Source: Pegea sp. RAD2-039 (lineage: Eukaryota > Chordata > Thaliacea > Salpida > Salpidae). Taken from it: a DNA stretch of 64,000 nt. Below, one piece after another: positions 4,101 through 57,935 of this stretch (positions are counted from its first letter, which is position 1; every line of letters starts with the position of its first letter). Location: positions 4,650,001-4,714,000 of the forward strand of contig JAQGEQ010000071.1 in the NCBI GenBank assembly GCA_034620365.1. Direction: 5' to 3'. The notes beneath the pieces are model-generated. The model was not told where the DNA came from. It searched no databases and saw only the letters and a program-made list of their open reading frames with translations. Position numbers and translations under genes: made by a program.

Positions 4101-4902
4101 ACCTTGAGGATCAAACTCTTTAGCGATTTTTAGTGCATCCGAGTTTGCAAGATCAGAGTTAGCAGGAGAGACAGCGAGGATCAAACAATTCTCTTTGGAA
4201 ACAAACTGACTAATCATATCTCGGATTTGTTGTTCGATATCAGCTGGTTGATCCCCAACTGGGACTTTTGTCATCCCCGGAAGATCAACAAGTGTCAGAT
4301 TGAGAACTGAGATCAAAAAGGATGAAGAAGATGAAGAGGAAGAGTGGGATGAATACCATGAGGAGAGTAGACGCGGAGATTGATGGGAATCGGACTGATT
4401 CCTTTGTTACTTCCAGTCATTCGGTCAGTTTCTGCTTCAATTTCTTTCCTGACTTCATTGAAGTCTGTAAACTTTCTCCCTTTACAATGAAGGAATTCAC
4501 CCCATTCTAAAAAACGACCAAATTAGTGATGGATCAGTGACAAACTGATGTAAACCTCCAGCTGAAGAGGTCATCAACTGCAAAACTAGGGGCCGTCTAG
4601 TTACAATTCCAGATCCACGAGGTAGAAAGTCTCTACAAATGATAAAGATCACAAAAAAGTAGATTAAAGTGAAGAATACTTACTTTCCGACAAAGTTTTC
4701 TAGCACACTGCTTTTACCAGCACTCTGACCCCCAACAACAGCAATTTGAGGCAGATCTATGCTTAAGGATGCCCCTAAAAAGAGAATCAAATCATCTTCA
4801 TCATTATCAACTTGAACAACTAATCTTACCAGTCGTTGTAAATGCATCTTGTAATTTATTTACCATAGGTATTAGCTGTTCCATTCCAAAGTTGCCAGCC
4901 AT
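1162..4902 (-). CDS. DNM: Dynamin (classical, full domain set), 864 aa, 21 exons
   Basis: Large GTPase that polymerises around membrane necks and drives fission in endocytosis. Exons in order of transcription: 4902-4830, 4774-4684, 4632-4556, 4506-4357, 4306-4103, 4054-3956, 3822-3662, 3609-3467, 3412-3277, 3219-3085, 3035-2964, 2882-2725, 2657-2603, 2554-2441, 2391-2258, 2206-2086, 2039-1881, 1827-1774, 1719-1606, 1554-1445, 1396-1162. They sum to 2,595 nt in one frame, with GT-AG borders throughout. Visible: P-loop GGQSAGKSS (about 39-47), DLPG (138-141), TKLD (207-210), stalk with [11 protein letters not shown] domain from about 519, GED with NLVDSYM, and a Pro/Arg-rich tail from about 787 with several PxxP motifs. 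The PH domain plus Pro-rich tail separates it from DRP1-type proteins. Length fits animal dynamins. Introns are mostly 45-80 nt. Two (3220-3276 and 1555-1605) are stop-free multiples of three. The identity is certain; single exon edges could be a few bases off. Confidence 0.95.
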
Positions 4903-55103: not shown

Positions 55104-57935
55104 CTTTTAAAAAAATAAACATTTTTTAGATAGATATTTTATAAATATCACATGTTAGATTTTATTTTTAAAACCAGATCACAATTTTAAAAACTTTTTA
55201 AATAAAAATTAATAAAAATGTCATAACTAAACATAAACAAGTAAAATTTAGCAACAAATACATTTTATTGCTTAATGAAATTAATTTATACACGTTGTTC
55301 TAACCGAAAATAAAAGGTATAAAATAAATTAATAACTAATCAGTATTTTAATTCAATCATTGAAAAGAATTAAAAGTTTGTATATCACACAGTTTGAAAA
55401 AAGTTTTAAATAATTATTTTTGCATGAAACCTTTTTATAAATAGTTTAAAAAACAAAATCAAAAATTTCCCGGGCCTACCACAACTATTTAAAAAATAAG
55501 TATTTAATATAAATAAGTTGTATTAATATATAATTTTAATCAATCAAACTTACACATATATCACTATCATTGTTTTAATATTTAGTAAAGAGTATTAATT
55601 CTAATAAGATACTAAAAACCAAAAACAAATTAAAATATAAACAAAGACTTAACAAAATAAGAATATTTTCAATATTAAGTAGGTCAAAAATAATTTTAAC
55701 AAAATAGCTAAGTAATAATAATGTTTAAATTTCATAAAAATTCTTATATAAATTTCACTATAAATTAAACATTAAAAAATTAATAAGTTTTTAATTAAGA
55801 TATTAAAAAATTTAATGTATTTTTAATAATCAGCAATAAATTGATATAAATTGTTACTTAAACATTCACATTAGGCATGAGAAAATAACTTTTTTGAGGC
55901 AAAAAAATGTTTTAATTTATAGTAAACAAGATGTACATTGTTAGCAAAATAAAAAAATGATAGAAAAAAAATTCTAATAAAAAATGAAAATATGATAAAC
56001 TTCTTTAAAATTAATTACAATTATGAAACACTTTAAAAAAATCAAGCAGAAAAGTTATGACATTTTAATCATACATGGATTTATATGAATTAAAACTTGA
56101 ATTTTTTTTAAAGACTAACTCTGTTTATAACAACTTTTAAAAGAAGTAATCTGAAAACTAAACAGTACTAGCAATTAAATACAGCGGAGTTTGAAAAATG
56201 TTGCTACACATCTTTACGACGACCATTATTTCCATTTCGGTTATCGTAAATATAAATCGGCCTTTTAAAAAATATTGCCTTTTGTATACACAAGTATAGC
56301 TTAAGAGTATTTCATGCGATTTTAGCATAACAAAACCTTACATGCATATTTATTTTTCTAAACTTTCCTTTTGTGTTACATAGGATAAGTTTTTCTAAGT
56401 GTAGAAGTTGAATATAAACAAACAGTTTTTTAAACAATTCTACAAAAATTTAGATAAAATTAAACTTAAAATTTTTAATTTGCCCAATTAGCTTACGTAA
56501 TAAGAATGTAACAAATGTTTAAGTTTTATATACACGAGATATATAATTTTATAATAAAGCTAGTTGAATTTGTTAGGTATCTTGATTTACAGAAATCATT
56601 TTAATAAGAAATCAAACTAATTGGGGGATGGTGCTATAAACTTAGCTTAATAAATTTATAGCATCAAGTTTTGATGAATTTATAATAAAGTAAGAAAATT
56701 ATTTATGAGTATCAAAAAAGCTGCAAATTTTGTTTGAAAGTAGTTCTGGTTTGATTTTAAATGATTTTTTTCTCAGTTCAAATTGTAAAATATCAGTTTT
56801 TGGAAATCTAAGTCTCATTAAGTTACTCATTGAAACACAATATTCAATTAACTTGTTCAACAATACTGGCACTTATTCATTAAAACTTATTTAATCTTTG
56901 AAAAATTTTAAACAAAAAATAAGAATTAAAATTTGTGTGATAAATAGTATCTATTAATTACTTTCTTTTTGTCATCTTACTTGAAGATTTGTTAATTTAT
57001 ATTTTTCTATTTTGTCACTTTTAATATATCTCAATTTTAAATCACTTAAAAAAATTTTTTCTACCTCTTAGAAAAAGTTTAAGTAGAATGATTTTGTAAC
57101 TCCAATAGATGCAGAATTCACCATTTTTAAAACTAATTTTATAAAGAGTTTGAAAGTATACATTATAAATATAAGAATTAATGAAGGAATTATAAATTTA
57201 ATTTATGTATAATTTTTGAATAATGATTATTTTGAAGCCTGAACGTCGGATGAAAAATCCCAATTATATAAAAAATATTTAAATTTTAGATGGACTTCAT
57301 CAATTGAAATTGTTGTTTGTTAAATAGTTAACACAAGTATGTATTTCTTACTTGAGGTTATTATAGTTTAGAAAATATTTCTAAAAAATGATTTAATATT
57401 TTATAAGGGCCACTGTTTCATTTTATGAATATCATATTTACAAAAACTAGCTTTTATTTAAGGTATATAGATTTTGATAACAGTCATCAAAATATCTTGT
57501 GCCTTTTTGAAATTATAATCTTTAAAGACTTACAAATTTCATTTATTTTTAACAAAGTTACTCAGACATTCTTAACTCATTGAAATGATTGAAACTACAC
57601 TAATACTTATTAAAAGTTGATATAAAGTAGTAATGATAAAGTAATATATTATAAAAACCAATTGCAAAAATAGTGCCAGAATATTTTAGTTTAGCTTTAT
57701 TCTTAGAGAAGTTCAAAAACAACTTGATAAGGTATAACTTTTGTGATCAAGATCGAACTGAAAATTTATAGTTTTTAAATCTTTAGTTCTTAAATGTATT
57801 TTTTAACAATTAAAGATTTTTTTAACAACAAAATTGACGTGTAATACCAAGAAATTCAACTTTAATAAACTGAAATTTCATGTATTATACCTTTTGCTTT
57901 CTATATTTCTAACTTAATAGATGTTATGATATTGA
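55104..57935. other. AT-rich region upstream of PHF10
   Basis: No coding exon supported. A slightly GC-richer patch with several CpG dinucleotides at about 56175-56270 may be regulatory. The rest is A/T-rich. Confidence 0.4.

Follow-up and report, generated by a model that had tools for sequence, protein, structure and literature searches.

In the SL1/SL2 spliced leader (SL) system of Caenorhabditis elegans, genes have an outron and a 3' splice acceptor shortly before the ATG. Trans-splicing has been reported in many animal groups (parts of PMC3795323, PMC7986045 and PMC12460157), and its SL form is scattered among animals and thought to have several origins (parts of PMC7986045 and PMC12460157). 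For genes in operons, the portion of PMC7986045 used here gives median gaps of 99-105 bp in C. elegans, where SL1/SL2 same-strand pairs lie about 100 bp apart, and short intercistronic gaps in the tunicates Ciona (1 bp) and Oikopleura (31-57 bp by setting). In the glass sponge Aphrocallistes vastus, whose genome is small (80 Mb), a trans-spliced leader of about 37 bp was seen in cDNA reads (part of PMC10282587), whereas the present analysis works with genomic DNA alone. We analyzed the 3' splice acceptors before start codons in a stretch of 64 kb with 27.4% G+C (the window: positions 4,650,001-4,714,000 of contig 1 in an assembly of 105.7 Mb and 387 contigs). Acceptors before start codons are more frequent and better than chance as a statistical excess and, as in C. 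elegans, they lie close before the ATG. Two same-strand gene pairs are separated by 85 and 65 nt, to be set beside the gaps of the nematode and the tunicates; unlike in C. elegans, no SL RNA was found in Rfam scans of parts of the genome or in two genome-wide pattern searches. The best explanation, which we hold with moderate confidence, would be SL trans-splicing of many genes together with operon-like pairs; we infer from sequence that a leader exists, that it has a donor RNA and that the reaction occurs in trans.

The window proteins are in keeping with an animal source, and Pfam supports dynamin, an XPD-family helicase, PSMG1, two proteins with a HIG domain, one with PHD fingers, and BBS9. 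COX1 was looked for without success; judged by rRNA motifs alone, the 18S and 5S pieces seem unlike those of a protostome. The names BRIP1, COXFA4, FAM199X and PHF10 are those of the original prediction, which also counts an open reading frame (ORF) of 13.4 kb among its genes. Acceptors were scored with a matrix trained on 261 introns (38-160 nt, median 54) predicted by our own gene finder, taking for each start the best AG at most 60 nt upstream, and the null was formed by 3165 intergenic ATGs from all scanned DNA. Two literal tests were applied as well: at least five T in the 10 nt preceding an AG that ends at most 42 nt from the ATG, and TT followed by up to two bases and AG. The 21 starts considered comprise 10 from the window and 11 from other contigs, the latter chosen after their upstream sequence was seen and hence possibly biased. 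The first literal test was passed by all 10 window starts and 10 of the 11 further starts, compared with 48% of 803 intergenic ATGs in the window, and the second by 8 of 10 and 10 of 11, compared with 52% of the same 803. With the matrix, the median score of the window starts was 5.5 against 4.4 for the null, a modest difference (p=0.019). The 11 further starts reached a median of 6.7 (p=3e-5), and the 21 starts together differed from the intergenic ATGs with p=7e-6.

A second set of 22 starts was picked by a fixed rule that requires a score of 25 or more and a first exon of 60 nt or more, and that drops starts less than 100 nt from the end of a stretch, those overlapping a stronger prediction and those with either of two U2-derived strings. 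Its median score is 6.5 (p=3e-5); scores of at least 6 occur in 13 of the 22 compared with 16.9% of the null, and the first literal test is passed by 19 of 22 compared with 48.5% of the 3165 ATGs. The set includes a wrong dynamin start (4847), one start overlapping a U2 gene (L029) and one gene taken twice (L030, L031), and it is without the true start of dynamin, BRIP1 (fused to PSMG1), COXFA4, the HIG paralogue, FAM199X and BBS9. The excess is also seen in paired comparisons within the same genes. Against windows 120-360 nt farther upstream, p was 0.0008 for the 21 starts and a borderline 0.065 for the 10 window starts alone; against the opposite strand, the respective values were 0.00015 and 0.007.

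Further support comes from the tight pairs. On the minus strand of the window, PSMG1 (10150..10857; proteasome assembly chaperone; Pfam PAC1, E 2.2e-10) is followed by a BRIP1-like XPD-family helicase (7389..10064; DEAD_2 and Helicase_C_2, E 3e-47 and 5e-51). The gap from the PSMG1 stop (10152-10150) to the BRIP1 ATG (10064) measures 85 nt (10065..10149) and contains ATTAAA and then the acceptor TTAAATTTGCTTTTCTTTAG (score 6.9, empirical p 0.07), whose end is 47 nt from the stop and 38 nt from the ATG; an in-frame stop lies 6 nt before the BRIP1 ATG. This is one of five neighbouring same-strand pairs that the genes of the original prediction form in the window, the other four having gaps of 418 nt or more than 1.5 kb. 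The second tight pair is on contig C49 (L039), where 65 nt separate the end of a DUF4660 gene from a presumably drebrin-like ADF-domain gene on the same strand; the acceptor GCATTTTTTTTAACTTGCAG lies 47 nt past the stop, with 18 nt left to the ATG. Both pairs consist of distinct proteins with Pfam support, and in both the acceptor stands within the gap at an equal 47 nt from the stop. Tight gaps with an acceptor inside favour trans over cis splicing. A third possible pair (L040), formed by the C-terminal end of what is presumably a GCN2-like gene and the next exon, was excluded; its GT...AG may be a cis intron.

Under the proposed explanation, the transcripts of many genes would begin with a 5' outron, closed by a normal 3' splice site at a distance of 0 to about 60 nt from the start codon. 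A small RNA with its gene elsewhere would donate a spliced leader to that site in trans, and this leader would also provide the 5' end for downstream genes of short same-strand pairs such as PSMG1-BRIP1. For the starts as a set, the search for partner donors agrees with this scheme. The best donor 36-200 nt upstream of the 21 starts has a median score of 4.3, compared with 5.2 at 2774 null sites and 6.9 in the 261 predicted introns. The set has no donor excess in this range: it does not exceed the null (p=0.94) and lies below the introns (p=5e-8). The contrast to the introns, all of 38-160 nt, is inflated because a good donor helped to select them. The test reaches 200 nt only, and longer introns fall outside it. 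Within this reach, the lack of a donor excess for the set favours trans over cis splicing.

Several observations weigh against trans-splicing. By the matrix, 6 of the 10 window sites are at chance level (PSMG1, the HIG paralogue, dynamin, PHF10, FAM199X and BBS9; empirical p at least 0.24). Donor-like sites do occur 36-200 nt upstream of some starts, namely BRIP1 (6.5), HIGD2A (6.5), DNAL4 (7.1) and the ADF-domain gene (7.6). The coding region of PSMG1 holds two donor-like sites, one of 6.5 at 105 nt and one of 6.2 at 60 nt before its stop codon ends, and the best donor for the acceptor of the ADF-domain gene lies inside the DUF4660 coding region, 63 nt before the end of the stop codon. Finally, Rfam revealed no SL RNA, either at gathering score in the window and 20 further stretches or, with E values of up to 1 admitted, near the 5S array and in 20 promoter matches. 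A genome-wide search for the promoter element shared by the small nuclear RNA (snRNA) genes, GTAAG and TTTTTGG in this order returned one match, which has only part of the element; with a looser pattern there were 8 matches compared with 0 for the control, and none of the six that were read was recognisable as an SL RNA. The original prediction had called for a search for an SL RNA gene elsewhere in the genome, and none was found by Rfam on the DNA just named or by these two genome-wide pattern searches. Its proposal of SL trans-splicing as such stands in part: it has the acceptor excess, the absence of a set-wide donor excess and the two tight pairs on its side, and the missing SL RNA gene, the six chance-like sites and the donors in the upstream coding regions of both pairs against it. 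We do not rate trans-splicing higher because the searches yielded no donor RNA and because donor-like sites also occur in the tight pairs, and these sites in particular shift weight from trans-splicing to cis splicing.

The alternative that fares best takes the acceptors as genuine but assigns them to ordinary cis introns, mostly in 5' untranslated regions (UTRs), with an own first exon for each gene and, for the pairs, a donor in the upstream gene. We regard this as somewhat unlikely, although it accounts for part of the data: the sites resemble the cis acceptors of this genome by the matrix, and longer UTR introns could hide donors beyond the tested range, since, of 697 predicted introns taken without filtering, one fifth are longer than 153 nt and one tenth longer than 237 nt. 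In both tight pairs, the upstream gene may be spliced in cis to the downstream acceptor, given the donors of 6.5 (BRIP1) and 7.6 (ADF-domain gene) in the coding region of the preceding gene. This explanation is opposed by the lack of a donor excess across the 21 starts and by the gaps of 85 and 65 nt, into which a first exon and a promoter of the downstream gene's own would not fit without entering the upstream gene.

It is also unlikely, and distinctly so, that the acceptors reflect chance, T-rich AGs being common near ATGs in AT-rich DNA and the excess stemming from the composition ahead of genes or from the choice of starts. The base rate of 48% in the loose test and the six individually ordinary window sites fit this explanation. 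In addition, the best AG within the first 60 nt of coding sequence has a median score of 5.3 compared with 6.5 upstream for the 21 starts, a weaker contrast, and for the 11 non-window starts the coding side scores almost as high (6.3 compared with 6.7 upstream). This explanation is opposed by the excess over shifted windows and the opposite strand of the same genes and by the excess in the rule-picked set. The statement of the original prediction that every recognised gene has an upstream acceptor was too strong, and the uniformity of the sites was overstated: COXFA4, the 13.4-kb ORF, HIGD2A and perhaps BRIP1 stand out, and the other six are chance-like. Its view that any single site is weak and that the signal is carried by the set was borne out, the base rate being about 48% and yet exceeded by the set. 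That the tight pairs are dicistronic mRNAs, or that the downstream gene has its promoter inside the upstream coding region, both without trans-splicing, would suit a count of just two pairs but is very improbable in view of a good acceptor in both gaps, equally 47 nt from the stop.

The search for a leader RNA also yielded information on the snRNA genes. The major spliceosomal snRNA genes, which an SL system would be expected to have, are present, with 19 matches for U2 and 19 for U1 (18 over the cut-off) in addition to U4, U5 and U6; the U2, U5 and U6 genes are arranged in inverted clusters. A shared promoter element, CCCACAAAYNNNAAACTT or close to it, lies about 57-65 nt before U2, U3, U4, U5, U6, RNase MRP and tRNA-Sec, and U1 genes carry the form CCCGCAAA. 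The A-form occurs at 371 places genome-wide with at most one mismatch, compared with 29 for the reversed control. Both pattern searches rest on the element as found here. Of the 371 places, about 100 were located individually and about 40 taken for reading, so that an SL RNA could be among the remaining ones. Rfam contains few SL RNA families. Two of the looser-pattern matches, an inverted pair on contig C22, resemble the 5' part of U4. At another of these matches (L052, contig C247), a GT and ATTTTTTG follow the element by eye, and this candidate was dropped as it folds no better than shuffled sequences (z 0.51).

SL1 genes of Caenorhabditis briggsae are linked to 5S genes (part of PMC7986045); in the 5S array of this genome no SL RNA passed the tests. 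A candidate in the 5S spacer was rejected, its 18-mer occurring only in the five spacers of the array (at most one mismatch) and its folding being unremarkable (z 0.48 compared with shuffles). One strand of the spacer also contains the GCTTATTACAA of the rotifer leader GGCTTATTACAACTTACCAAGAG (part of PMC3795323). We consider this likeness a coincidence, because that strand has no Sm site by eye and the adjoining 18-mer is confined to the 5S array.

Three families of sequences that follow the promoter element were also observed. The largest, on contigs C72 and C94 (L041-L043, L061-L077; 20 copies), has the element and an Sm-like site, which reads AATTTTTGG in 13 of 20. Its 5' part varies between copies, and its 3' hairpin comes in two kinds, with 13 and 7 copies. 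One copy folds with z -4.3 when the upstream hairpin is included and -2.0 without it, and three copies scanned gave no Rfam match. As an SL RNA this family was rejected, since its 20 copies have neither a constant leader nor a constant GT donor. The other two families (L046-L048 on C36, C73 and C89; L053 and L054 on C122) are strongly similar and structured-looking within each and had no Rfam match above gathering score. A second kind of U1 (L083, contig C40, about 957-1180 of the locus) stands between canonical copies; it begins with AAACTTACTTGG instead of ATACTTACCTG and keeps a U1-like body and AATTTGTGG. Only this copy was read, and the lower-scoring U1 matches (about 110-117 bits) may be further copies. 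It is conceivable, if quite unlikely, that we are dealing with an SL and operon system of an AT-rich animal lineage with an atypical leader RNA, either off the U1-U6 promoter element or with an unusual donor or Sm site, in a genome that also has a second U1 kind and an RNA family with an Sm site.

Turning to the individual sites, the ten AGs were confirmed at their predicted positions, with distances to the ATG of 42, 38, 19, 23, 20, 40, 25, 31, 8 and 0 nt in the order dynamin, BRIP1, PSMG1, 13.4-kb ORF, COXFA4, HIGD2A, HIG paralogue, FAM199X, BBS9 and PHF10. The strongest acceptor, CTAAATCTATCATTTTTCAG (16388..16407, plus strand), precedes the COXFA4-like ATG (16428) and scores 9.0 (p 0.005); the joined exons of this gene gave no match in Pfam. 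On the same strand, GACTGACTAATATTTTTCAG (13361..13380) before the 13.4-kb ORF scores 7.8 (p 0.028), and windows farther upstream of this ORF score high too. HIGD2A (ATG 22428, minus strand) is preceded by AATAACGTTTGTTATTTCAG (22469..22488; 7.7, p 0.032). Its HIG paralogue (ATG 24416, minus strand), which like HIGD2A matches HIG_1_N in Pfam, has the predicted site at 24442..24461 and a better AG 31 nt before the ATG (5.5, p 0.26). The acceptor-like sites GCTTAATTTGTATTTTTAAG before PSMG1 (10877..10896, minus strand; 5.6, p 0.24) and ATATATTAAAGTGTGTTTAG before the dynamin ATG at 4902 (4945..4964, minus strand; 5.1, p 0.34) are at chance level; the joined first exons of dynamin match Dynamin_N slightly below the curated cut-off. 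The site AATGTTTATTTTTTTAAAAG (55104..55123, minus strand; 4.1, p 0.54) abuts the ATG (55103) of PHF10, which has PHD fingers according to Pfam. From the PHF10 stop to the ATG of BBS9 on the same strand extends the 418-nt gap (53030..53447), whose last 60 nt before the BBS9 ATG (53029) hold no good acceptor. The predicted BBS9 site is at 53038..53057 (minus strand); the best AG is another one at 33 nt (2.5, p 0.82), and the PHTB1_N match of this protein begins at residue 1 and profile position 1. For FAM199X (ATG 44091, plus strand), the acceptor-like site at 44040..44059 is at chance level (2.9, p 0.77), and a short ATG-TGA lies between it and the ATG. This FAM199X-like gene also contains, by eye, a minisatellite of TGACCTGACCACTTTC-like units at 45950-46215, between coding stretches.

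Some repeats were seen in passing. The regions 18750-19390 and 57935-58005 share, by eye, a similar tail (gagaggtg, tctcttcaggca, cctcctt, gcatttattg and aataaataaatta in this order), in all likelihood from the 3' end of a non-LTR element. In 18750-19390, the tail comes after a decayed reading similar to a predicted protein of L034 that is itself reverse-transcriptase-like. An 18S rRNA fragment (L081, C1:6130150-6132050) enters on its left side about 800 bases of ATCATCAACAAAATT-type repeat, and its 3' end GATGAATCTGCGGAAATATCATTA appears unlike the usual one.

If SL trans-splicing does occur as proposed here, it would be one more case of an already known kind of system. A genome with common SL trans-splicing and tight pairs would provide another test of how such systems begin. 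In that case, the annotation of 5' ends, promoters and gene-pair fusions would also have to change, PSMG1 and BRIP1 having been merged into one gene by our own gene finder.

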